Positions 1,456 to 16,971 of a stretch of 32,285 bases of DNA are shown here, piece by piece; the first letter of the stretch is position 1; each line of letters begins with the position of its first letter. A model generated the notes under the pieces. It did no database searches, had not been told where the DNA came from, and saw only the letters and a list, made by a program, of their open reading frames with translations. Location of the stretch: assembly GCA_020721645.1 (NCBI GenBank), contig DYMH01000029.1:1-32285 (forward strand), in the 5' to 3' direction. The DNA is from Draconibacterium orientale (GTDB lineage Bacteria > Bacteroidota > Bacteroidia > Bacteroidales > JAADGE01). The translations under genes and the position numbers were made by a program.

Positions 1456-4400
1456 TTAAATTTTAGTCAAAATAGGAAATTCAACAAAAAATTCGGTTCC
1501 TTTTCCCACTTCCGACTCGAACCAAATTTCGCCGCCGGAATTGTTTACAATATTTTTTACAATTGCCAAGCCCATGCCCATACCTTTTGTTTTGGTGGTG
1601 AAACTGGGAATGAATAATTTTTCGCGACGGTCTTCGGGAATCCCACTTCCGTTATCCTTTACAGTAACTTTTACACGTGAGCCGTAAGCTGTTAATCCAA
1701 TTTCAATTTTTCCGTGAATGCCTTCGGGAACCGATTGTATTCCGTTTTTTACTAAATTAATAAACACCCGTGATATTTGTTCTTTATCGGCTATAATTTT
1801 TACGCTTTTAATTTGATTCAAGTTCAAAGAAATGTCGATATCTTTTGTATTTTCAAAAAGTTGTGCAATGGTAACTAATTTGGCAGCCAAATCTACTTCT
1901 TCGTCTTGTGCTTTGGGCATTTTGGCAAAAGCCGAAAACTCCGAAGCGATTGCTGATAATGTATCAATTTGTTCGATTAGAACGTTTGTTACTTTGGTCA
2001 TTCTCATATCGAAATCTTCTTTATTATCTTTCCAAGAGCGTTGTAAGAGCTGAACGCTTAATTTCATGGGTGTCAGCGGATTTTTTATTTCGTGGGCAAT
2101 TTGTTTTGCCATTTCGCGCCAAGCACTTTCGCGTTCGGTATCGGCAAGTTTACGCACGTTTTCCGACATTTCCTGCACCATTCGATTGTATTCTTTAATT
2201 AATCCACCAATTTCGTCTTTTTTATCGTATTGTATTTCTTGGTATAACTTTCCCAACTCCGTTTCCCTGAATTTATACTGCAACATTCTGAGTGGCTGTG
2301 TAATTCCCGAAGAAATTACAAAAGCAATAAAGATAACAATCAACAAGAGAACAACATACATATTTATTACGGTAACTAAAAGAGCCGAAATATCTTTTCT
2401 CAAATTTTCGGGATTTCCGAAGTAGGGTAAATTTATATATGCAATGATGTTGTTTTCACTGTTTTTCAACGGAATATAAACAGAAGAATACTTTAATTCG
2501 CCAATGGATTCGTTTTGTATGAACAATGTTTTTTTTCTGAAAACCAATTGCGTAAATGCCCGATTATTCATCTGCCGCCCAATTAAACCGCGAGTGAATA
2601 TCTCCGGACGTGAGGTTGCCAACAAAAATCCGCTTGGGTCATAGAGGTTGATATCAGAAAAAAAGACCTGCGATAATTTTATCATCAATTCATCGAGATG
2701 GTCGTATTTATTGCTCTTCCAATTTGGTTTTAATTCATTTTCATAGAATAATTTTTGTTCTGTTTCAACCAAAACCGACTGAATTTTATCGGTCATTTCT
2801 TTTTTTTGCACATCTTCGTGTCGTTTTATCGTATAATAAATTGTTACAGCACCAAAAAAAATAAATGTAAGCAACAAAATAAAAAGCATTCCGAAGCGAA
2901 TTTTATTGTTAAAATCCGGCACAAAATCAGTTTTTATCAATTTGACATCGAAGATAAAAATTGAAAACAACAAGAATATGTTTAAAAAAACGAATAAATA
3001 AGCAAACGATATCAACAAATCGATTGTGTGATGAGCAGGAATACTCAATACAATACAGTTTTGGCTGTCGGGGCGATAGACGGTATGTTCAAATTTTTCG
3101 TACGTGATGTTGCTAAATTCCTGTTTATCTGTTTGAAAGGAGGCATCACCCAAATCGTATGGAAAAATCCCCGAATGTGTTATCAATTTTCCATCGCGAT
3201 ATTTGGCAAAGGAATATTTTGTAAAAATTCTATTTTTTACGGTATTTTCGTCCAAAAGCAATTCAGGATAGCCTAATTCTTTGGAAATCAGCTTAGAAGA
3301 TAATTTAACATACAGACTGATTTTTCGTTCATCAACTTCTTTTGGAATGTTCAAAAAGCCAAAGTAGGTAATGGTTCCGTTGTGATTGTCTAAAAAATTA
3401 TAGTTGCAATTTTTAATTTTTTTTGAATTTTTAAGAATCTTCGTGTTAAAATAATTTTCGCAATTATCTGCTTGATTTTCGGAAGGAAAATTAGGATTAT
3501 TGCCGCAAACCGTAATTTCAAAATCAAATTTTTTCCAAAAACCTACAAAATATTTTTGATTTAGATGACTGTATATCAAGCTATCTTGATTATCCACCGG
3601 ATTTATTAAATAATGAAGCAGAACATCATCATTTTTCATGGCTTTTTCAATATCCGGAATCAATAATTCAGCCACATCGTCTCGTTCGTCGATTAATTGT
3701 GTTACCAAATTTGCACGAACATCTTTTTCTTTTTGTGTTGATACGTTTGTTACAAAAATAACGGTGTAAATTGATGCTAAAAAGATTAAAATTACAAAGA
3801 CAAAATATCTATATTTTTTACCAAAAAAGCGAATGTAGATAATGACAGAACTTGCCGGTAAAATAAATAAATACGTGCTTATTTCATTTATTTTCAGGAA
3901 AATAACAGCAACAATAGCCACAACTACGAAAACTGAGAAAAAAATGAGAATCATCTCAACAAATTTTACAACGGAAACAAATCGTTGTAATAGATTGTCG
4001 GCTACGTAAACATAAGAAACAATGAGCAATGTTATAATTAGATAAGCCGTCAAACTGTAAACATCCAGCTGAGGTAAATTATATATTTCAAGAGAAATAT
4101 TTGAATTGATAATCAGGCTATTGAAGAGATTTCTGATAAATAAAAAATAGGAAATCAGAAGTGAACTTACCAAAATACTTAAAATATATGGCAGAAATTT
4201 GATTTTTTTTGCCCATTCCGTCATTCTGTCGAAATCGAAAATTTTGAAAACAGAGACCACAAAAAACAATATGAGCATGGCATTGAGCAAAAAATCGCCG
4301 AGCAGCGGAAATAAAGCATTTCCTGCGTATATTTCGGGTTCAAAAAAGCTGAGCGAATACAAAAAAACCGGAAATTTGAATTTCAACATCAGAAATCGTA

Positions 4401-5211
4401 TGCCTAAAACTGTGAAAAGGAGTGCAAAACTGTAAAGTTTTCCATTTTTAAGAGTTGGCATCAATTCTATTAACTGATTGAAATACAATAATAAAAAAGC
4501 GATACTTAGAAAAAATAAAATGCTCGTAAAACCGGTTTCATCTCGTTTGAGCGAAATTCTATTAAACGGCACTATCGAGAAAACATAGACATCGTTTTTG
4601 TTGCGAATATTTTGCCCGTGTGCCAGCGGGACAGTCGATAAACGAACACTCGAAGGTAAATTCAATTCCTGACGAAAGGAATTTTTCAAATATTTATTTT
4701 CAAAAGAAAAATTGTTTTTCAATCGAATCAGCCCAATATAAGAGAGGTTTCCGATATTCTTGATGCGAAGCTCATACCAACCGTTGTTTGATTCAATAAC
4801 TCCCTCTTTCATAAAATTAGATTCTTTCAACGATTTGGGAGCATTTACCGAATTATCGGTCCAAAATCGAAGAGAATCGTCTTGATAAATAAAAATAAGT
4901 ATCCCTTTGTCGGATAATTCGCTGAAATCCTTGTCGATAAGAAATGTAGAGATGCTGTCAGAAAATGTTTCGGATTGGCTTTTGGCTTGATTTTCAATCT
5001 CAATCACTGCCGCATCGAAGCGATTTTCGAGCGAATGGAGGGTTTTTTCGATTTTTACGGAATTAATTTTATAGTCTTCCGGATACAGCAAACGCCTTTC
5101 CTTAGCCAAAGCAAGCGAAAAAAAAACAATAAATAACAGCAGAAACTTTAACTGTAAAAGTTGGGGCAACAAGGAATTTTTCGTCTTTTTAAAATCAATA
5201 AAATTATTCAT
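1456..5211 (-). CDS. Large multi-TM sensor histidine kinase (NtrY-like)
   Basis: 1251 residues, far longer than most sensor kinases. In order: an N-terminal membrane or signal segment (~13-35), an extracytoplasmic region (~36-225), a block of about eight membrane spans (~230-500), a second extracytoplasmic region, two more spans near 770-850, a sensory loop, a final span, a HAMP-type linker, then the kinase core. The phospho-acceptor is H1040 in AHEIKNPLTP. The N box is NLVKNGIQSV, and the G boxes are DNGSGIP and GMGMGLAIVKNIV, so the catalytic core looks intact. The HEIKNPLTP box and overall layout resemble NtrY-type kinases. The start codon overlaps the rlmH stop by 8 bp, which implies one transcript and translational coupling. 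No response regulator lies in the window. The signal sensed is unknown. Confidence 0.88.
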   Translation of the reverse strand: MNNFIDFKKTKNSLLPQLLQLKFLLLFIVFFSLALAKERRLLYPEDYKINSVKIEKTLHSLENRFDAAVIEIENQAKSQSETFSDSISTFLIDKDFSELSDKGILIFIYQDDSLRFWTDNSVNAPKSLKESNFMKEGVIESNNGWYELRIKNIGNLSYIGLIRLKNNFSFENKYLKNSFRQELNLPSSVRLSTVPLAHGQNIRNKNDVYVFSIVPFNRISLKRDETGFTSILFFLSIAFLLLYFNQLIELMPTLKNGKLYSFALLFTVLGIRFLMLKFKFPVFLYSLSFFEPEIYAGNALFPLLGDFLLNAMLILFFVVSVFKIFDFDRMTEWAKKIKFLPYILSILVSSLLISYFLFIRNLFNSLIINSNISLEIYNLPQLDVYSLTAYLIITLLIVSYVYVADNLLQRFVSVVKFVEMILIFFSVFVVVAIVAVIFLKINEISTYLFILPASSVIIYIRFFGKKYRYFVFVILIFLASIYTVIFVTNVSTQKEKDVRANLVTQLIDERDDVAELLIPDIEKAMKNDDVLLHYLINPVDNQDSLIYSHLNQKYFVGFWKKFDFEITVCGNNPNFPSENQADNCENYFNTKILKNSKKIKNCNYNFLDNHNGTITYFGFLNIPKEVDERKISLYVKLSSKLISKELGYPELLLDENTVKNRIFTKYSFAKYRDGKLITHSGIFPYDLGDASFQTDKQEFSNITYEKFEHTVYRPDSQNCIVLSIPAHHTIDLLISFAYLFVFLNIFLLFSIFIFDVKLIKTDFVPDFNNKIRFGMLFILLLTFIFFGAVTIYYTIKRHEDVQKKEMTDKIQSVLVETEQKLFYENELKPNWKSNKYDHLDELMIKLSQVFFSDINLYDPSGFLLATSRPEIFTRGLIGRQMNNRAFTQLVFRKKTLFIQNESIGELKYSSVYIPLKNSENNIIAYINLPYFGNPENLRKDISALLVTVINMYVVLLLIVIFIAFVISSGITQPLRMLQYKFRETELGKLYQEIQYDKKDEIGGLIKEYNRMVQEMSENVRKLADTERESAWREMAKQIAHEIKNPLTPMKLSVQLLQRSWKDNKEDFDMRMTKVTNVLIEQIDTLSAIASEFSAFAKMPKAQDEEVDLAAKLVTIAQLFENTKDIDISLNLNQIKSVKIIADKEQISRVFINLVKNGIQSVPEGIHGKIEIGLTAYGSRVKVTVKDNGSGIPEDRREKLFIPSFTTKTKGMGMGLAIVKNIVNNSGGEIWFESEVGKGTEFFVEFPILTKI

Positions 5212-6547: not shown

Positions 6548-9500
6548 ATGAACCGGACAGCAGCAGCAGGTTACCTTATCGAAACCATTAAAAGCCTTTT
6601 TACGAAAAAACAAATCGATGAAAAACTGGCATATTTGTGGGCAAACCTTTCCTATTTCGATATTTACACCCAAGAATCTTTCGTATATAAAAATCCGGAC
6701 CCGGCAAGTGCAGTGATATACAATATGATAACTCGCGGCTTGCCGGTATCACTGAGTGTTTTTGGCGAAGAATTTTTCTCGAACACTTTTCAAGCAACCG
6801 AAAAACAAATTGATACACAAGGTACAATAGAATGGAAATTTACAAATAATCAAGTATCAGATACAATATTTAGGGCGTTACATATCATTTCACCGGATAA
6901 AAACGATTCTCAATTTGTTTTCAAAGCCACAGCACGAGACCTTTTCAATAAAGATATTATTGAAAAAATTTTTATCAACAAGCTTGGAAAACATTTTCTT
7001 CAATCAATACAACAAAATGTAAATTATAAAGAATTAGCCGAATTGGATTTTGAGTTTTTACAAAATACCAATTCAACACTTTTAAGTGAATTTTCTGAAA
7101 AAACAATAGATTTTCTTATCAATTTTCCATACCCCTACAACGGTTTCAAGGGTATTATCGTTGAAAGCAACCCCGAGGCGGGAGAATCGGGAACCGACTA
7201 TATTGCACTGAATAAAAAGAAATTACTTGCCGAATCGCTCAAATACGATTTTGTTTACATCAAAAAGGGAAAAATAGAAGATGCCGCCAAACAATTTCAA
7301 AAATATACCTATATCGAACCGTTTGAAATATTGAAAAAAAATTTTCAAACACCACTTTATCAACGTGAAACCGGACGCGATGCAATGCAAATGGCACTCA
7401 GTCCGTTTGGCATGGCACGAATACAGGCAACACTTTTGAAATTGATATTGAGCAAAAAACTCGATTTGAATGCCGAAAAATGGTCGATAGCAGTTATCGA
7501 ACGCGACATTCCCGCAGCTTTTGCAGCTATTGAAGACTTAAAAAAATATTACGAAAATCTCTACACACTGCGCGAAGGCGAATATAAATTCCCAAAAATA
7601 AACTTTACTCTATACACATCAAGCGATTTTGCTGAATCAAAACTCAATAAAACTTTCAAAGGAAAAATTTACACTATTTCAGATTTTCACAGCACCAGAG
7701 AATTTGATGTACTTCTCGATTTTTCGATGCTCAGCCGTTTTTTTAATGATGACGAAAAAATTCCGAATGCTGCAAAAAATTATCTTGCAATTCGTTCATC
7801 TTCCTCGGCAAATACACAACACAGCTTTGTATTTTCAAGCCCGATAAAGTATCAAACACTCGAAACAAACAGTAAAGCTCAAATAGCCGCCGAATATTTT
7901 CTTCAAAGCATTTTCAGGAAAGAGCATTTTTTTGAAGAACAGATTTCAGCCCTGAACTTAATTCTTAATTGCAAAAGTACAATAATTATTACCCCACCAA
8001 ACACCGGAAAATCCATGATGTGGCAGTTTTCGGCGATGCTTCAAGCCGGATTGACAATTGCTGTACAATCTACGCAATCATTAATGTATGAGCAATTTAT
8101 CAAACTTAAAAAACATCTTCCCGACAGTTGTTTTTATCTGAATAACTCGAAACTTAAAATTAATAGAAAACAAGAAGTTATCCGCCGAATAAGTAACAAA
8201 CAAGCACTTATATTACTTGCAACTCCCGAAATATTTGCAGAATCATCGTTTCGGTCATTCATATCCGAATTAAAAAATAAATCAACAATTTTTGCAGGCT
8301 TGGTTTTAGACGAAGCTCACTGTTTGTCGGAATGGTCGCACGATTTCAGAGTTCTGTATGCCAATTTGGCAACAAATTTTTATCAACAAATACAAGGTGT
8401 CGAAAAAACAGAAATTCCGGTTTACGCATTTTCATCTGGTGCATCGTATGATGTTCGGAAAGATATTGGCGAAAAATTTAAAATAGAAGCAGATTCTGTA
8501 TATATCAGCGATAAAATAAAATTAAATCATCATCTAAAAATCCAAATTGCAAATGAAGGTCCCAGAACACGCGATATTGATTTAGCTCTAAAAATAAGCC
8601 TTCAAAACAAACTCAAAGAACTGTCGGAACTTCTGAAAACACTCACGGCATCGCAAGATAAAACAATAATCTTCACTAATAATTCTTCGGATTTTGCAAA
8701 AGTTTTCGAGATTTGTAAATCGCAACAGCCCAATACCTTACCGGCTCAATATTCGAGCTGCCGGCAAAACGAAATGAATCCAATTTCGGGAGTGGATTTT
8801 GACAGAATGCAACAGAATTATCTCGATTTTAACTTAGGCAACAAACAAATATTGATTTGCGATGAATCGACAAGCATTGGATTAGATTTTGAAGCTGTGC
8901 GAAACATCGTTTTTTTTAATTTGCCCTACTCAATCGAAAATTTCATACAAATTTCGGGCAGAGCCGGTCGAGGGACAAGCGATGCTTATATTTATTTGAT
9001 ATTCGATAAAACAGCTCTGAGTTTTAACGAAAATATCGAAATACAAAAATCACAAGGTGAAACTGAAACCATAGAACAAGCAAGCGATACAATACCTGAT
9101 GCCGTAGTTACAAGAAAAAAAATCAAACAAAAATATCCCGGACAAAAAAAAGAACTTATCCTTTTCGATGAGTTGATGACACAAATCAACAATCCGGATT
9201 TCAGCCCTAATCAACTGATTGTAAATAAAATAAACGAAACATTCGGCGAAAAAATCAGTTTAATTTCTCAACCAACACACAATCCGTATCAGATAGCGAT
9301 TCTGAAAAAAGATAAAACATTTGGGCATATTGATTTTAAGACCGATACAATAAATTTCGAACATTCGGTTTTCGATAAACACCTGTCATATTTAATTCTT
9401 AATACAGTTAAATCCGAGATATTAAATCTGCTACCCGAAAAAGATTCTATTTTTAACAAACTCGACAAGCCGATAAATAATATTGATAATGAAGGCATTG

Positions 9501-10618
9501 AAATAAAACTTGAGCAGATACAAATTGGTGAAACAGCTTCAATTGAATTTTATTTAAACAACAAAATAGCCGATGAACTATTGGAGATATTAACAAAAAA
9601 TATTTCGGAAGAATTTAAAAAAGAAAATTTAATATCTGAACTCGAAAACAACACCCATCATGTTCGGTTTATCGAAAATTTGAATAAAACAGCCAATACA
9701 AATCGTGTTACAAAACAAATAGACGTTCCTCTAACCATAGAATCAATGTTTTATCGTTATCGAAACGAAAATCAAACATTAACACTCTTGCATCGCCTTA
9801 TTTTATTGAAAATAATAGATAATTTTGAAATTGATAACACTAAACATTCTGTAAAAATATATTTTCAGAAAAAAGATGATGAAACCTATAAAATATCACT
9901 TTTTCAATTTCTCGAAAATTTTGTTGCAAAAGAAAAAGCCATGTCATTTTTCGATTTTTTCGACACCCTGAGCGGAAAAAATACTATCAGAAAATGTTTC
10001 AATTTCTTAATATATTTCACTTACGACACCATATTAGAAAAAAGAATCAACTGTGCCGATGAAATGGTTGATTTTTACAAAGCACTCGCACAAAATAAAT
10101 CGGCACGCAAAACCTTAGACTTCAAAGTAACAAGCTATTTTGAACAAGTTAATTCTGCCAAATTTCTCAATACTTTGGTTATTCCCAGTCTGAAAATAGG
10201 CACATTTAACCTTAAAATTTCGAGCTTTGAAACAGTAATGAAATATATCAATTTAGCAAAAAATTCGAATGATACTCGTGAGCATATCAAAGAAAGCACA
10301 GAATTTTTATTGAAACAAAACGAAAAAAATTATACGATATTATTACTCAACGCCTACACGCATCTTTGGTCTGATTTTAAAAATCAGAATATCTTTGAAT
10401 TAGCTTACGACCGGCTTTCCGAAGGTTTTTTATTAATGGAAACGAGTGAACGATTGGATTATTCCGAACTGAATGCCCGAAAAACACAATACCTCAAAGA
10501 ATTATATCAACGCAATAGCGAAATACAGGAAATTGTTGAACCCGTAATATATATCAAAACACACGCAAACTGGCTCAAAAATTTTAATAAATCATTTCTT
10601 GAAGGATTTTGCGCATAA
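6548..10618 (+). CDS. Large divergent RecQ-like DEAH-box helicase with N- and C-terminal extensions
   Basis: 1356 residues, roughly twice the length of housekeeping RecQ. The motor lies at about 450-830: motif I as TPPNTGKS (482-489), a TPEIF segment, motif II as DEAHCLSEWSHDFR (from 588), which is the RecQ signature, a motif III-like SSGASYDVRKDI, motif V in ESTSIGLDFEAVR, and motif VI QISGRAGRG (801-809). ATP-binding and hydrolysis residues look intact, although motif I lacks the usual GGGKS form. I see no RecQ zinc-binding cysteines or HRDC domain after it. The N-terminal ~430 residues include FLINFPYPYNGFKGIIVESN (near 190-210) and WSIAVIERDIPAAFAAIEDL (near 315), which recall the front ends of other large bacterial helicases with nuclease-like domains. 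The C-terminal ~520 residues are unrecognised and look helical. Likely role: DNA unwinding in repair or anti-phage defence, not proven. Confidence 0.8.
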   Translation: MNRTAAAGYLIETIKSLFTKKQIDEKLAYLWANLSYFDIYTQESFVYKNPDPASAVIYNMITRGLPVSLSVFGEEFFSNTFQATEKQIDTQGTIEWKFTNNQVSDTIFRALHIISPDKNDSQFVFKATARDLFNKDIIEKIFINKLGKHFLQSIQQNVNYKELAELDFEFLQNTNSTLLSEFSEKTIDFLINFPYPYNGFKGIIVESNPEAGESGTDYIALNKKKLLAESLKYDFVYIKKGKIEDAAKQFQKYTYIEPFEILKKNFQTPLYQRETGRDAMQMALSPFGMARIQATLLKLILSKKLDLNAEKWSIAVIERDIPAAFAAIEDLKKYYENLYTLREGEYKFPKINFTLYTSSDFAESKLNKTFKGKIYTISDFHSTREFDVLLDFSMLSRFFNDDEKIPNAAKNYLAIRSSSSANTQHSFVFSSPIKYQTLETNSKAQIAAEYFLQSIFRKEHFFEEQISALNLILNCKSTIIITPPNTGKSMMWQFSAMLQAGLTIAVQSTQSLMYEQFIKLKKHLPDSCFYLNNSKLKINRKQEVIRRISNKQALILLATPEIFAESSFRSFISELKNKSTIFAGLVLDEAHCLSEWSHDFRVLYANLATNFYQQIQGVEKTEIPVYAFSSGASYDVRKDIGEKFKIEADSVYISDKIKLNHHLKIQIANEGPRTRDIDLALKISLQNKLKELSELLKTLTASQDKTIIFTNNSSDFAKVFEICKSQQPNTLPAQYSSCRQNEMNPISGVDFDRMQQNYLDFNLGNKQILICDESTSIGLDFEAVRNIVFFNLPYSIENFIQISGRAGRGTSDAYIYLIFDKTALSFNENIEIQKSQGETETIEQASDTIPDAVVTRKKIKQKYPGQKKELILFDELMTQINNPDFSPNQLIVNKINETFGEKISLISQPTHNPYQIAILKKDKTFGHIDFKTDTINFEHSVFDKHLSYLILNTVKSEILNLLPEKDSIFNKLDKPINNIDNEGIEIKLEQIQIGETASIEFYLNNKIADELLEILTKNISEEFKKENLISELENNTHHVRFIENLNKTANTNRVTKQIDVPLTIESMFYRYRNENQTLTLLHRLILLKIIDNFEIDNTKHSVKIYFQKKDDETYKISLFQFLENFVAKEKAMSFFDFFDTLSGKNTIRKCFNFLIYFTYDTILEKRINCADEMVDFYKALAQNKSARKTLDFKVTSYFEQVNSAKFLNTLVIPSLKIGTFNLKISSFETVMKYINLAKNSNDTREHIKESTEFLLKQNEKNYTILLLNAYTHLWSDFKNQNIFELAYDRLSEGFLLMETSERLDYSELNARKTQYLKELYQRNSEIQEIVEPVIYIKTHANWLKNFNKSFLEGFCA

Positions 10619-10666
10619 ATTTTATAAAAAAACATCTATTATTACAACAGATTACTATAATAAAAA

Positions 10667-10694
10667 GTAGTTAGTAAATAGTAGTTAGTATTTA
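10667..10694. repeat. Two tandem 14-bp repeats
   Basis: GTAGTTAGTAAATA (10667-10680) is followed at once by GTAGTTAGTATTTA (10681-10694), 12 of 14 identical. They lie in the 256-bp gap between the helicase and the coiled-coil gene. A -7-like TATATTTG sits further on at 10752-10759 without a clear -33 box. Confidence 0.6.
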
Positions 10695-10874
10695 GAAAAA
10701 AGCTGATAATGAAGCGATTGTATGTTAATCAAGAGTATTAATGTCGTTAATTATATTTGAATAAATTTTAAAATATTAACAAGAGCTAAAAATTGAATAA
10801 AATTTTCTTAAAATTGCATTATTTTTCTAAATATTAAACATTTACATTCTAAAAAACGGCAACAAAGTAAAATT

Positions 10875-11573
10875 ATGAAAGACCAAATAAACCAAGAATT
10901 AATAAAACTTCAAACCGAATTAGGCAATTTGGGAAGTGCGGTAAGTCAAATTTCAAAAGCCGAAAAATTATCGAGCGAAATCGTTGCAGCAGTGCAAGCT
11001 ATGCAAAGTAAATACGAAGCTCAATTCGAGAAAATTTCAGGACATTTTGAAAACTACCTTTCACAATTAACAAAAAATAGTGAAGATAATTTTCAAAAAT
11101 CTGTCGAAAAAAACGCAGCCGACTCCGAAGAAATTCATAAAATCGTTGCTCAAATCAGTGCCGAAGCACATAATCTGTTGAGCGAAACCCAATCGCAGGT
11201 AGGTATTTTAGTTGAACATCACAGCTCACAAATTACCGAAATCAACAACCTGTTACAAAGTTATCTTCAATTAGCAAAATCGACCACCGCACTTTCGGTT
11301 CAAATCGAAAAAGTCGATTTTCCGACACGCATGGACAAAATAACAGTCAATATCGGTGAAATGAACTCCGAAATACGCCAAATACAAGCTCATCTCAAGT
11401 CAATAGCCGACAATCCGGTTTTGGCAAATTTGGAAAATCGTATCCGAAAAAACAACAAGAAAATCAACTTCATTGCCGGTTTAGCAATAATTGCTCTACT
11501 CTTATTACTTGGTTTGACCTACGAAATAATTATCCTCAAATATTTTCCACAATTAGGCCTCAAAATGCAGTAA
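10875..11573 (+). CDS. Coiled-coil protein with C-terminal membrane anchor, unknown function
   Basis: 232 residues. From 1 to about 185 the sequence is helical, rich in E, Q, K, S and A with heptad-like spacing, and lacks proline in long stretches, as expected of a coiled coil. One hydrophobic span follows (~194-215, around FIAGLAIIALLLLLGLTYEI), with a basic RKNNKK just before it and a ~12-residue tail after it. There is no signal peptide, so the coil should be cytoplasmic and tethered by its C-terminus. No enzymatic motif is visible. It follows the large helicase gene on the same strand after 256 bp and may have its own promoter, so membership in one system with the helicase is only suggested. 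Confidence 0.7.
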   Translation: MKDQINQELIKLQTELGNLGSAVSQISKAEKLSSEIVAAVQAMQSKYEAQFEKISGHFENYLSQLTKNSEDNFQKSVEKNAADSEEIHKIVAQISAEAHNLLSETQSQVGILVEHHSSQITEINNLLQSYLQLAKSTTALSVQIEKVDFPTRMDKITVNIGEMNSEIRQIQAHLKSIADNPVLANLENRIRKNNKKINFIAGLAIIALLLLLGLTYEIIILKYFPQLGLKMQ

Positions 11574-11708: not shown

Positions 11709-12038
11709 ATGAATATTTTCGTCGGAAGCCTTCATTATGACATCAATGAAGCAGATTTAAAAGAAATTTTTGAAGAGTACGGTGCAGTTAGCTCGGTTAA
11801 AATCATTACTGACAAATTCACAGGAAAAAGCAAAGGTTTTGGTTTTGTCGAAATGGCAAACGCAGAAGAAGCCAAAAAAGCTATCGAAGAATTGAACGAA
11901 GCTGAATTAGAAGGCAGAAAAATGGTTGTAAACGAGGCTCTCGAAAAGAAAGACGATCGAAAAAGACCCAATAACAATCGAGGCGGCGGAAGCGGCGGTT
12001 ATCAAAAACGCGAAGGTGGTTACAAACCACGAAGCTAA
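11709..12038 (+). CDS. RRM-domain RNA-binding protein
   Basis: 109 residues: one RNA recognition motif (~1-78) and a short glycine/arginine-rich tail. RNP2 is IFVGSL (3-8) and RNP1 is KGFGFVEM (42-49), with the aromatic residues that stack on RNA present in both. The tail (RGGGSGGYQKREGG) resembles RGG boxes. Small single-RRM proteins of this type are common in Bacteroidetes and cyanobacteria, where they bind single-stranded RNA and are often linked to cold or stress responses and to global post-transcriptional control. It has its own -7 box and terminator, so it is monocistronic. Confidence 0.95.
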   Translation: MNIFVGSLHYDINEADLKEIFEEYGAVSSVKIITDKFTGKSKGFGFVEMANAEEAKKAIEELNEAELEGRKMVVNEALEKKDDRKRPNNNRGGGSGGYQKREGGYKPRS

Positions 12039-12057
12039 TTCGATTCCCTTAAAAAAA

Positions 12058-12083
12058 GGAAACCGCTGTAAGCGGTTTTTTTT
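12058..12083 (+). terminator. Intrinsic terminator of the RRM gene
   Basis: AAACCGCT, loop GTA, AGCGGTTT form an 8-bp stem (12060-12067 / 12071-12078) that runs into a T tract, 20 bp after the RRM stop codon. Confidence 0.9.
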
Positions 12084-12499: not shown

Positions 12500-12529
12500 T
12501 TGACAATTTCTTTTTTTTCAATATCTTTG
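12500..12529 (+). promoter_or_regulatory. Bacteroidetes-type promoter of the B12 operon
   Basis: TTG (12500-12502), a 19-bp spacer and TATCTTTG (12522-12529) match the consensus closely. Predicted transcription starts a few bases later, right at the 5' strand of the riboswitch P1 stem, which supports both calls. Confidence 0.75.
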
Positions 12530-12535
12530 TAAAAA

Positions 12536-12721
12536 AATTATTCGGAAACGGAATCCTGTTGAAAGCAGGAGCTGTCCCCGCAGCCGTAATCTCGACTTTT
12601 CACAGTAAAAGTAAAAAATTTCAAACACAAGCCACTGTTTAGTAAATGGGAAGGCGTTTGAGAAGCGAGAAAGCCGGAAAACCTACCTAATAATTGATTT
12701 TTCGTGGCTTTCGGGTGAAAG
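12536..12721 (+). promoter_or_regulatory. Cobalamin (B12) riboswitch
   Basis: The conserved B12-element core is present: GTTGAAAGCAGGAGCTGTCC continuing CCGCAGCCGTAA, then GCCACTG...GGGAAGGC, then AGCCGGAAAACCTACC (the B12 box). The P1 stem pairs AATTATTCGG (12536-12545) with CCTAATAATT (12686-12695), 9 of 10 pairs. The P5 hairpin GCTG-TCCCCG-CAGC presents a C-rich loop. A downstream hairpin CTTTC-GGGT-GAAAG (12708-12721) offers the G-rich partner for the L5-L13 kissing loop typical of these riboswitches. No intrinsic terminator follows, so control is probably of translation or by another route. High cobalamin should repress the surface protein, btuB and btuG genes downstream. Confidence 0.93.
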
Positions 12722-12819
12722 GTCGGGTGAAAAATTATTCCCCATACCGCATTCCTCAGCCTCAATATTATTTCAATAATTTCAAAATCTATTTTTTGGA
12801 ATTGAAAACACTAAATACA

Positions 12820-13833
12820 ATGGCTTCAACGAGGGTTTTTGCGGCATTTTTACTCATTTTACTTTTCAAAATTCATTTATCTGCTCAGAATTTTGAAAAT
12901 TTCATTTCAAAAGACAATCCCGAAATACAGGAATGGGCTTCGGGTTGCATTATTAACAGAGGCTATATCAACATTTCGGATACTTCGGAAACTTTCTCTG
13001 CAAACGGTATCACATCAAATCACGCATTTTTTGGAACAGACTCCATGGCACTTGGAATCGCCGACGGCTCTCAAAATGTTGTGAGTTTGGGTGATGCAGG
13101 TTGGGCTGTTTTAACATTTCAATACCCAATTGCAAACGGCGAAGGAACGGACTTTGCAGTGTTTGAAAACGCCATGGAATCACTAACACAAAGCGGTCAA
13201 TATTTTATCGAACCTGCATTTGTCGAAGTCAGTTCCGATGGATTGAATTATTTTCGTTTTCCTGCACGTACCGAAATTCCAAATACACAACAACTTGGAT
13301 CATTTGGGCTAAACTCTCCCGACTTATTACATAATCTTGCAGGAAATGCCCCACCTGATTTGGGAACACCTTTTGATTTAGAAGAAATGAAAAATATTTT
13401 CGGTTTGGATATTACACGAATAACACACGTAAAAATTATAGATATTCCGGGAAGTATTTTGCCCGAATTTGCTAAATTCGATGCTTTGGGGAACATCATC
13501 AACGCCCCTTTCCCCACGCCATTCAATACTTGCGGATTTGATTTAAACGCTTTGGCAGTAATTCATATTGCTGATAACTCGGAATCCGAAGAACAGATTT
13601 TGGTTAAAATTTCCCCGAATCCGTCCAAGACATCAAAAAATTTGGCAATTACAATCCAATCCGAAAGTCGAATAATTGCACAAATTTTTGATATTTACGG
13701 ACATTGTATCTACCAAATCATATTGCCGGCTTGCGAATCATCATTAAAAATACCTGATTTAGCAACCGGTGTTTACATTCTGTCAATTACATCGAAAACA
13801 AAAAGTCGAAAATTAAAATTCATCATCAGATGA
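12820..13833 (+). CDS. T9SS-exported surface protein of the B12 operon
   Basis: 337 residues from the ATG at 12820. An in-frame TTG at 12694 would lie inside the riboswitch and is rejected. A signal peptide ends LSAQ (~1-23). The body carries a domain with GDAGWAVLTFQYPI, GTDFAVFENA and EPAFVEVSSDGLNYFRFPA, a pattern I know from bacterial 'cell surface protein' families with a beta-sandwich fold. The last ~75 residues (from ISPNPSKTSKN to KSRKLKFIIR) are a type A T9SS C-terminal sorting domain, so the protein should cross the outer membrane through the Por system and be attached outside. First gene after the cobalamin riboswitch and upstream of BtuB and BtuG homologues, so it most likely helps capture cobalamin or a cobalamin-bearing protein. 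That role is inferred. Confidence 0.85.
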   Translation: MASTRVFAAFLLILLFKIHLSAQNFENFISKDNPEIQEWASGCIINRGYINISDTSETFSANGITSNHAFFGTDSMALGIADGSQNVVSLGDAGWAVLTFQYPIANGEGTDFAVFENAMESLTQSGQYFIEPAFVEVSSDGLNYFRFPARTEIPNTQQLGSFGLNSPDLLHNLAGNAPPDLGTPFDLEEMKNIFGLDITRITHVKIIDIPGSILPEFAKFDALGNIINAPFPTPFNTCGFDLNALAVIHIADNSESEEQILVKISPNPSKTSKNLAITIQSESRIIAQIFDIYGHCIYQIILPACESSLKIPDLATGVYILSITSKTKSRKLKFIIR

Positions 13834-13853
13834 ACCAAAAAACTAATTTTTGA
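13830..13853 (+). other. Seven-codon micro-ORF linking two genes
   Basis: ATG at 13830 overlaps the upstream gene's TGA stop (ATGA, 13830-13833). The frame encodes MNQKTNF and stops at TGA 13851-13853, overlapping the TTG start of the btuB-like gene (TTGA, 13850-13853). A terminating ribosome could pass from one to the next by reinitiation. The arrangement may also be chance. Confidence 0.3.
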
Positions 13854-15850
13854 AAAAAATTTATATTAATTTGATTTTATGCTTAATAAGCGTTGATTTA
13901 TCGGCACAAATCTCAAAAGATACGCTTAGCATCGAAGTAATTCCCGTTTTTGGAAAACGATCTCTCGATGACGCCGGCATTCATAAAATATCAATCGACA
14001 CGCTGATTATTCAACAAAATATAAATACAAGTTTGTCTGATATTTTATCAAAAGGGAGTTCTGTTTTTGTCAAATCGGAAGGTCGCGGTGCATATTCTAC
14101 TGTTTCGATACGCGGAGCATCTGCAAGCAATACAGAAGTGCTGTGGAACGGCATAAGTATTAAATCTCCGATGCTCGGAGTTGCTGACTTTTCATTGATT
14201 CCGACCTTTGCCGCAGATAATATTTCACTTTTTTATGGAGGCAGCTCGTTGCAAAATTCTTCCGGAGCTCTCGGCGGTTCGGTCAATATTGAAAATTATG
14301 CCGATTTCGGAAATCGTTTCACTCTATCCTTTATACAAGGAATTGGAAGTTACGGAACGTTTCAGGATTTTTTGCGTTTCGGCATCGGGAATCGAAAATT
14401 TCAGACAAAAATTGGAATTTTTTATAATTTCTCCGAAAACGATTTCAAATTCAGAAATAAAAACAATGCCGAAATCGACACAGCAACAGGTAATTACATT
14501 TATCCAACTCAAAAAAATAATCATGCCGATTATCTGATTTTTGGTTCGACACAGGAATTTTATATGAAAATCGGAAAAAAAACAAATTTATCGATAAATA
14601 ATTGGATTCAAAGAAGTAAGCGAAGTCTTCCGAGATTGAATACTTTTGAGGGTAACGATTATTCAAACATCAACTTACAAAATGATTTTTCCGAAAGACT
14701 CACAGCTGAAATTTCAAGAATCAACGGAAAAATAAGTATAAAATATCGAATTGGAATTTCTGTAGAAAATTCTTCTTACAAACTACAAAATTTTGTATCC
14801 GGGCAAGGACTTCAAAATGCTGTATATTCGACAGATACGTATTTTGTGTGGTATCATAAAATTCAGACAGAATATCGATTTTCAACAAAGTCGAAACTAA
14901 AAGCTGATGCCGAAATAAATTATTATCAGGCACTTACTTACGACAGTATCAAAAGAACAGGGTATTCCGAAAATAGAATCGAAAAATTGTTTTTCATTTC
15001 CTATTCCCGACAAATTACTGAAAAATTGTCAGGCTCTGTGCTGTTACGCCAAAATTTTGTAGATAATACGTACATTCTGCCAATTCCATACCTTGGAATC
15101 GATTTTTTATTGGTAAAGAAAATGCAACTTTTTGTAAAAGGAAGTGTTACACGAAATTATCACTCGCCATATCTGAACGAAATGTTTTGGCAGCCCGGCG
15201 GTAATCCTAAATTAAAACCCGAAAAAGGAATTTTGACTGAGGTTTCGCTGAATGGTGAATTTGCTGCAAAAAAACTGAAAAACTCTATTTCATTCGCTTG
15301 TTTTTATTCCGATATTTCCGACCGAATTTTATGGTTGCCCTCTGCCGGAGGTTGGTGGGAGGCTCGAAATATTACGAAAGTTATATCGAAAGGCATTGAA
15401 TTTCAAAATAATACAACAATTACTTTTTCCAAAACGATTCTGAGATTGATATTGAATTACAGCTTTACAAAATCCGTGAATATCACCGGATTTGGTATCG
15501 CAAACGACGAGTCTATCGGTAAACAATTGCCTTACACACCTTTACATTCGATTAATACGATTATCGAAATCAAATACAAAAAATGGACTGTTTATTACAC
15601 AAACACTTTTTACAGCGAACGATTTACAACATCTTCAAACGATTTAACCCGTCGAGACCGTTTGTATCCGTACATAATGAATAACGTTTCGTTTGGAAAA
15701 TCTATCAATTTAAAAAAAGTAGAGATAGGTTTGCAAGTAAAGGTTGAAAACTTGTTCAACGAAGAATATCGTTCGGTTTTGCAACGACCGATGCCCGGTA
15801 GAAATTATTTACTTTTAATCTCATTAAAATTTCAGAAACAATCTGAATGA
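13850..15850 (+). CDS. btuB: TonB-dependent outer-membrane receptor, BtuB-type
   Basis: 666 residues. The start is TTG at 13850: an in-frame TAA lies two codons upstream, no in-frame ATG precedes it, and it gives a normal signal peptide (MKKIYINLILCLISVDLSAQ). After the signal peptide a TonB-box-like stretch (SIEVIPVFGK) precedes the plug domain, with STVSIRGASASNTEVLWNGI and SSGALGGSVNI, followed by a ~520-residue beta-barrel with alternating aromatic strands. It ends in NLFNEEYRSVLQRPMPGRNY and LLLISLKF, a usual C-terminal barrel signature. It should import cobalamin across the outer membrane using TonB/ExbBD energy. Specificity is assigned from the riboswitch upstream and the BtuG-type gene downstream, since the barrel alone does not reveal it. 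Confidence 0.88.
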   Translation: MKKIYINLILCLISVDLSAQISKDTLSIEVIPVFGKRSLDDAGIHKISIDTLIIQQNINTSLSDILSKGSSVFVKSEGRGAYSTVSIRGASASNTEVLWNGISIKSPMLGVADFSLIPTFAADNISLFYGGSSLQNSSGALGGSVNIENYADFGNRFTLSFIQGIGSYGTFQDFLRFGIGNRKFQTKIGIFYNFSENDFKFRNKNNAEIDTATGNYIYPTQKNNHADYLIFGSTQEFYMKIGKKTNLSINNWIQRSKRSLPRLNTFEGNDYSNINLQNDFSERLTAEISRINGKISIKYRIGISVENSSYKLQNFVSGQGLQNAVYSTDTYFVWYHKIQTEYRFSTKSKLKADAEINYYQALTYDSIKRTGYSENRIEKLFFISYSRQITEKLSGSVLLRQNFVDNTYILPIPYLGIDFLLVKKMQLFVKGSVTRNYHSPYLNEMFWQPGGNPKLKPEKGILTEVSLNGEFAAKKLKNSISFACFYSDISDRILWLPSAGGWWEARNITKVISKGIEFQNNTTITFSKTILRLILNYSFTKSVNITGFGIANDESIGKQLPYTPLHSINTIIEIKYKKWTVYYTNTFYSERFTTSSNDLTRRDRLYPYIMNNVSFGKSINLKKVEIGLQVKVENLFNEEYRSVLQRPMPGRNYLLLISLKFQKQSE

Positions 15851-15864
15851 AAAATTTTTAAAAA

Positions 15865-16971
15865 ATGAAAAATAACTATTTTTCACTTTCATTTTTAACA
15901 ATATTTTTGGCAGTTTCGTGTATGAACGATGATTCAGCACAAGATTTTCAGAAAAATTTAAAACATCACGGAATTGGCGTTTTTATTGTAAACGAAGGAA
16001 ATTTCATGTACGGAAACGCCTCTCTTTCGTTTTACGATGCCCGAAATAAAACGGTTGAAAACGATATTTTCTATAACACAAACGGACTGCCGCTCGGCGA
16101 TGTTGCACAATCGATGGTAATCGTTGATTCAACGGCTTTTGTTGTAATAAATAATTCGGGCAAAATATACATGCTCAACTTAAACACTTTTAAATATATC
16201 GGAAAAATTACGGGGCTGACTTCTCCTCGATATTTCCTCCCCATTTCTTCAACAAAAGCCTATATTTCAGATTTATACGCAAAATCAATAAGCGTTATCA
16301 ATCCAAAAACGGGGTTTAAAATTGGTTCGATTGATGTAAATAATAACAATCTGCAATTTTATCAACACCCAACCGAACACATGGTGATTTCCGGAAAATA
16401 TGTTTATGTAAATTGTCATTCGTTCGACGATAAAATTCTTAAAATCGACTCGGAAACCGATAAACTTACTGATTCATTAACAGTTACAAAGCAACCAAAC
16501 AGCATGGTTTTGGATAAAAACGACAAACTTTGGGTTTTGTCCGACGGCGGATTTCCGGAAAGCCCTTACGGACAAGTAAATGCAGCCATTTCGCTTGTCG
16601 ATTTAAGTACATTTTCAACCGAAAAAACAATGGTTTTTACAGATTCCCATTCGACACCTAAATCCCTGTATATCAATAAATCAAAAGACACACTCTACTA
16701 TATTATCAACAATTCAGTTTCTCCGAACATTTCGGGTGTTTACCGTTTGGCGATTGATGAAAATTCTCTTCCCCAACAAGCAATTATTCCGTCCGACAAC
16801 CATCTTTTTTACTCTCTTGCAATCGACCCCGAAAATTCGGATATATATGTTGCCGATGCCAAAAATTATATGCAACGCGGTGATATTTACCGATTTTCGC
16901 CAAACTGCACACCAATAGATACATTTCAGGTTGGAATTATTCCGGGCGGCTTTTGTTTTAAAGCAAAATAA
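15865..16971 (+). CDS. btuG: Surface lipoprotein with YncE-like beta-propeller, BtuG-type
   Basis: 368 residues. The lipobox LAVSC gives a lipidated C19, and the acidic MNDDS after it resembles the Bacteroidetes surface-export signal, so the protein should face outward. From ~35 on there are repeated propeller blades, for example GKIYMLNLNTFKYIGKITG, then AKSISVINPKTGFKIGSIDV, then NDKLWVLSDGG, as in DUF5074/YncE-like proteins. In Bacteroides, BtuG is such a lipoprotein, binds B12 very tightly and sits as a lid on BtuB. It starts 14 bp after the btuB stop, in the riboswitch-controlled operon. Function is assigned from family and context. Confidence 0.85.
   Translation: MKNNYFSLSFLTIFLAVSCMNDDSAQDFQKNLKHHGIGVFIVNEGNFMYGNASLSFYDARNKTVENDIFYNTNGLPLGDVAQSMVIVDSTAFVVINNSGKIYMLNLNTFKYIGKITGLTSPRYFLPISSTKAYISDLYAKSISVINPKTGFKIGSIDVNNNNLQFYQHPTEHMVISGKYVYVNCHSFDDKILKIDSETDKLTDSLTVTKQPNSMVLDKNDKLWVLSDGGFPESPYGQVNAAISLVDLSTFSTEKTMVFTDSHSTPKSLYINKSKDTLYYIINNSVSPNISGVYRLAIDENSLPQQAIIPSDNHLFYSLAIDPENSDIYVADAKNYMQRGDIYRFSPNCTPIDTFQVGIIPGGFCFKAK

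Follow-up and report, generated by a model that had tools for sequence, protein, structure and literature searches.

A RecQ-like helicase and its tail-anchored partner in Bacteroidales: possible descendants of an antiviral helicase-nuclease domesticated as a DNA-tethering or DNA-sensing complex at the membrane

Do the giant RecQ-like helicase of Draconibacterium orientale and the coiled-coil protein encoded next to it form an undescribed anti-phage system driven by a DNA motor, as an initial annotation of this locus had proposed? The window analysed here is the whole stretch of 32 285 nucleotides (contig DYMH01000029.1), and the features of the locus are collected in Table 1. Both reading frames were recovered as that annotation gave them, the shorter being the next gene on the same strand. 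An anti-phage motor is nevertheless not the best-supported role for the window copy, because the nuclease has lost its active site and the motor has decayed in part. It seems to us, on balance, probable that a membrane-tethered defence helicase-nuclease was domesticated in the window's branch into a membrane-anchored DNA-binding scaffold or sensor.

Table 1. Features of the helicase–partner locus and their positions in the window.
Feature	Positions	Strand	Evidence
Giant RecQ-like helicase relative, 1356 aa	6548–10618	+	ORF, Pfam, profile against RecQ structures, full-length homologues
Predicted PD-(D/E)XK (DUF559/Vsr-like) nuclease fold, residues about 121–260, active-site signature lost	6908–7327	+	AlphaFold2 model, structural neighbours, DUF559 in relatives
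Predicted Rossmann-like domain, residues about 261–430	7328–7837	+	AlphaFold2 model, structural alignment, column conservation
RecQ-type motor, residues about 451–830	7898–9037	+	Pfam, profile comparison
Motif I TPPNTGKS (first G of GxGK lost, GKS kept)	7991–8014	+	Motif alignment
Motif II DEAH, kept	8309–8320	+	Motif alignment
Motif VI QISGRAGR, kept	8948–8971	+	Motif alignment
C-terminal mixed region, no clear match	9038–10102	+	C-terminal model
Putative TPR-like helical domain, residues about 1189–1345	10112–10582	+	Weak structural matches only
Tail-anchored coiled-coil partner, 232 aa	10875–11573	+	ORF, homology searches, pairing count
One membrane span at the C-terminus of the partner, from residue 194	11454–11525	+	Hydropathy
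RRM protein gene; possible third gene of the transcription unit	11709–12038	+	Pfam, cross-locus comparison
Terminator-like site 3′ of the RRM gene	12055–12083	+	Intrinsic-terminator scan

Pfam recognised only DEAD (residues 464–618) and Helicase_C (688–808) in the helicase, and RecQ structures aligned to residues 468–850 of the profile. DEAHCLSEW (D588) and QISGRAGRG (Q801–R808) are both retained, and the Pfam scan of the window protein returned neither an RQC zinc nor an HRDC domain, in agreement with the initial annotation; RQC and HRDC are not universal among RecQ proteins. About 430 residues before the motor and about 520 after it had been left unassigned, a description that stands only in part: the former can be ascribed to a degraded nuclease fold and a Rossmann-like domain, both predicted, while the latter end in a possible TPR-like stack. 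The C-terminal model (pLDDT 85) places this stack at its end, with weak structural matches (Z up to 7.4).

A profile of the N-terminal part found no match among PDB sequences. The corresponding AlphaFold2 model (pLDDT 87, from 27 aligned N-termini) gave VRR_NUC (4qbl, Z 7.7) and TnsA (1f1z, Z 6.0) as VIA-align neighbours of residues about 122–258, middling scores that are backed by DUF559 Pfam matches in seven relatives and by E-I-D-G-x-x-H...RD in many, so that the modelled fold is assigned as DUF559/Vsr-like PD-(D/E)XK. Matches of the N-terminal model to Rsm22 (8d8l, Z 8.9) and PRMT5 indicate a fold of the Rossmann/methyltransferase-like kind, with Z values near those of chance matches; model and VIA-align place the Rossmann-like domain at residues about 271–427. 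Foldseek hits of the same model to phosphoglucose isomerase (TMq 0.12–0.16) were discarded as not meaningful. A sub-branch of the family carries an extra N-terminal methyltransferase-like domain (L176, 6391–11400; L113, 7763–12262; L172, 9227–13072), with DWGCGQG in L176 and L113; in L113 the nuclease segment is deleted outright.

Directly 3′ of the helicase and on the same strand, 70 of the 73 non-redundant loci with downstream room have a gene for a protein of fewer than 500 amino acids with exactly one membrane span, at its C-terminus. The same rule was satisfied by 4 of 510 other genes in these loci, so the pairing is far beyond chance, and the proposed co-occurrence of the two genes in other genomes is borne out. 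Two of the three exceptions (L175 and L109) narrowly miss the rule; the third (L042) is without any such gene. Searched by itself, the partner was found in 25 of 291 genomes, and in nearly all of them, G010 and G256 not being counted, the hit adjoined a relative of the helicase.

The window partner was confirmed as a coiled coil with a single C-terminal hydrophobic span; the basic residues RIRKNNKK that precede this span agree with an N-terminus in the cytoplasm. The gap between the two genes (256 nt) is the widest of the family, where the median is 1 nt, and no + strand intrinsic terminator-like site was found within it or upstream of the RRM gene in the window; helicase, partner and RRM genes possibly form one transcription unit. 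An RRM gene also lies directly downstream of the pair in three loci of two other families (L121, L124 and L129). Further along the window, a Cobalamin riboswitch (12510–12704; Rfam RF00174, 60.7 bits) precedes a TonB-receptor operon with a DUF5074 gene (12694–16971), probably for B12 uptake; because the TTG start at 12694 falls inside the riboswitch, the true start lies downstream.

Of 78 full-length relatives, 38 retain the nuclease signature together with motor motifs I, II and VI. The other 40 are missing the signature; the motor motifs are also eroded in 35 of these, and all three are kept in five. No signature-positive nuclease with an eroded motor was seen among the 78, and the states of nuclease and motor are linked. 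All intact copies keep the nuclease E, G and R as well as every motor residue counted (38/38). In the eroded branch the motif I lysine persists in 32 of 37 copies, the DEAH glutamate in 27 and the second motif VI arginine in only 10; of the nuclease E-x-D, the E is kept in 14 of 37 and the D, counted separately, also in 14 of 37, a graded erosion that counts against domestication. The window nuclease site retains E206, with D replaced by N208, G by P209, H by G212 and RD by KK, and thus departs from the catalytic signature E-x-D-G-x-x-H plus RD (E206-S-N-P..G, KK). In its motor, motif III is gone, as is the first glycine of the P-loop; ATP binding is plausible given that GKS, DEAH and both motif VI arginines are retained.

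At least three changes of nuclease state were required on a tree built with the nuclease active-site columns excluded, and grouping all nuclease-less rows as one clade was rejected (p-AU 1.7e-49, on a quick tree and for a group named after the alignment had been seen). Copies from Tannerella forsythia and a relative nest among intact ones, with L176 (intact) as their neighbour; the end of the motor is missing from them as well. These two results indicate that catalysis was lost at least twice, Tannerella representing a separate loss. The reversed direction, from core gene to defence, was ruled out: the motifs of intact copies match unrelated RecQ and DUF559 proteins, which makes the eroded state the derived one. 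The ancestor was a nuclease-helicase.

Seven pairs of eroded proteins gave dN/dS values of 0.06–0.20 in the motor and 0.05–0.29 elsewhere, resembling those of intact pairs, by simple counting and with dS near saturation in several pairs; the eroded branch is under purifying selection rather than decaying. Intact copies have 96 motor columns conserved at 90% or more and the eroded branch has 4, against 10 and 24, respectively, in the Rossmann-like domain. Conservation has therefore moved from the motor, now the least conserved part, to the Rossmann-like domain, now the best conserved (L284, P286, R291, E318, D320, P349, D391 and R416 among its conserved residues). Identity over the N-terminal part is 34–42% within the window's family, a fast sequence change that would also suit an arms race and in that respect counts against domestication.

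Full-length helicase relatives occur in a minority of the genomes of the order Bacteroidales. A single-protein scan of genome contigs found no relatives and the broad alignment A3 was too poorly conserved for pattern scans, whereas the closer N-terminal alignment A5 did find them. When GTDB genomes were scanned for the N-terminal domain, 60 loci were recovered, from Bacteroidales, Hymenobacter, Flavobacteriales, Ignavibacteria, Kapaibacteria, Cloacimonadota, Vampirovibrio, Lachnospiraceae and Betaproteobacteria. The collection consists mostly of metagenome bins, and mis-binning may explain a CPR record (L142) that hardly differs from an Ignavibacteria copy; the family is absent from all phage records of the collection. 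Proteins of roughly 1600 amino acids in L044, L045, L047 and L048 were rejected as members, being exonuclease-RecQ-UvrD fusions; such fusions (1578–1660 amino acids, domains read from sequence) are found in several genomes of the order.

Intact relatives are sporadic and cross phyla and plasmids. Some are nearly identical between different families of the order (L063/L066 and L068/L070), as transfer would lead one to expect. The eroded-branch gene is single copy. One family has it in 16 of its 18 genomes (8/8 of high quality; the two genomes without it are 64% and 72% complete), and it was found in 5 of 7 genomes of a second (4/4 of high quality), in 3 of 3 of a third and, outside genus g2, in 7 of 7 of the window's own family, erosion having been scored for only part of these genomes. 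Genus g2 has it in 0 of 14 genomes, one member carrying an intact copy instead. Universal conservation as a Bacteroidales core gene, which the initial annotation had named as one case against its proposal, was thus found for some families and not for the order as a whole. The position of the locus differs between genera of the window's family, so rearrangement or some transfer has occurred there too.

Taking up to four nearest neighbours per locus, 133 proteins beside intact copies matched 192 PADLOC models at 1e-20, and 128 proteins beside the eroded branch matched seven candidate models, otherwise belonging to housekeeping families; since these figures count models, several of which may match one protein, the contrast is qualitative. 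A handful of eroded loci that lie off the main branch (Tannerella and L113) were sorted by relatives or by state and do not drive it. Matches near intact loci include HmaA, DrmD, BrxH, GajB, type II/III methyltransferases and reverse transcriptases, and Pfam agrees with the PADLOC contrast, adding GmrSD, Fic and others. Plasmid-borne intact copies were found in Haliscomenobacter hydrossis (pHALHY02) and Salinibacter ruber (pSR56), the latter adjoining type I restriction genes. The suggested defence neighbourhood therefore exists around intact relatives, which lie near defence genes or on plasmids, but not in the window's branch, which has housekeeping neighbours. Across families, eroded loci share the RRM gene as a neighbour, as well as an OmpA/PD40 gene near eight loci. 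Contexts have moved from mobile defence to inherited core.

Other neighbours were observed in passing. A DUF1848-type gene lies directly upstream of the helicase in L161, L167 and L176. In L035 (504–6794) two same-strand genes follow the pair, one for a UvrD-like helicase and one for what is probably a DNA methyltransferase, and an integrase-like gene lies close by; these functions were read from sequence. In the window, a 1251-amino-acid multi-span histidine kinase (1456–5211) adjoins rlmH; a homologue adjoins rlmH in L200 and a partial one lies near a DUF4783 gene in L196.

Under domestication, the ancestor would have been a two-gene defence system in which a RecQ-type helicase with an N-terminal PD-(D/E)XK nuclease, tethered at the inner membrane by its tail-anchored coiled-coil partner, seized and cut invading DNA. 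In a Bacteroidales branch the nuclease signature would have been lost and the motor eroded in most members, the pair becoming an inherited single-copy gene set outside defence islands. Its present role would most likely be non-catalytic: the large protein would bind DNA, in the window perhaps still ATP-dependently because GKS, DEAH and the motif VI arginines survive there, and would be docked on the membrane protein by its Rossmann-like and TPR-like parts, one or other of which may contact the coiled coil, to give a membrane-bound DNA tether or sensor. The key ATPase residues kept in the window mean that this motor may be active, which counts against such a role. A broader version, in which Bacteroidota twice or more domesticated an antiviral helicase-nuclease with its membrane-anchored partner, the outcome being a core complex devoid of catalysis that would tether or sense DNA at the membrane, is put forward only tentatively.

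It is fairly unlikely, in our assessment, that the eroded branch is still anti-phage, its helicase part sensing foreign or damaged DNA and its tail-anchored partner opening the membrane, with the nuclease dropped because the partner became, or always was, the killing effector. Such a role would suit the span-bearing partner kept in every eroded member with room, the tolerated loss of the nuclease, the fast divergence and the defence islands of intact relatives, but single-copy, family-wide and vertical-looking inheritance among housekeeping neighbours is unusual for defence genes, many members have eroded ATPase motifs and would have lost a helicase sensor switch with them, and the partner, with its single short span, shows no known pore fold. 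A more specific form of the domestication reading, that the pair anchors host DNA or a replication or segregation complex to the membrane as a chromosome or nucleoid tether, fits the combination of a DNA-binding fold with a tail-anchored coiled coil, the core status and the loss of catalysis; it is unlikely as it stands, given that many related families lack the pair, as does genus g2 of the window's own family.

The accessory defence block with an active DNA motor, inserted between housekeeping genes, that was proposed initially does describe the intact relatives; for the window copy it is very improbable, as this branch is single copy, near-universal in several Bacteroidales families and present in all sampled genera of the window's family but one, with housekeeping and shared neighbours and eroded catalytic residues. 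That the protein is a variant housekeeping RecQ repair helicase beside an unrelated membrane gene is scarcely credible: its motor profile matches RecQ structures, but the pair is conserved across phyla, the TIGR00614 cut-off is missed, the same genome has other RecQ-like genes and in this branch no part is less conserved than the motor.

If domestication is correct, the pair represents a two-gene defence family not described before, which includes a tail-anchored partner and spans several phyla, and also a clear example of a bacterial immune machine that shed its enzymes while the scaffold persists as a core gene; intact and eroded forms existing side by side would make the functional shift directly testable.

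The pair had not been recognised from named systems, and it fits none in PADLOC 2.0 or NCBIfam 20, nor was a description found in the open-access literature searched. Compared with RecQ (TIGR00614, cut-off 219.8 bits), the window protein scores 132.4 bits while the motor of the intact relative L063 reaches 244.3; unlike RecQ it has no RQC/HRDC, carries nuclease, Rossmann-like and TPR-like parts and belongs to a family in which the tail-anchored partner is near-universal. PADLOC's best-scoring label for the window motor is DpdF of the Dpd (7-deazaguanine) system (PDLC02861, 1.9e-38), but the match is confined to the motor and the NCBIfam DpdF score is 64.3 bits against a cut-off of 550. PsyrTA (the RecQ-like PsyrT with its antitoxin) also places a RecQ-like motor in a two-gene unit; the match is again limited to the motor, PsyrA gave no hit and the partner here is a tail-anchored coiled coil. 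Zorya (ZorA/ZorB with ZorD) would resemble the pair only in manner of working, by combining a coiled-coil membrane component with a helicase-nuclease: homology was not found, there is no MotA/ExbB-type or ZorB-type protein and no SNF2 motor, ZorA/ZorB membrane motor genes are absent among the window neighbours scanned and the partner's ZorA match (E 0.002) spans the coiled coil only. In YprA-family helicases (ARMADA, Druantia I/II) a Vsr-like PD-(D/E)XK domain is fused to the helicase and predicted to be inactivated in some types (PMC12458937). These systems share with the present family the fusion of a defence helicase to such a domain, but use another motor family with the nuclease at the C-terminus, whereas here an N-terminal nuclease is joined to a RecQ-type motor and accompanied by a tail-anchored partner. 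In layout, and by analogy only, an SF2 helicase paired with a tail-anchored adaptor resembles the RIG-I-like helicases and MAVS.
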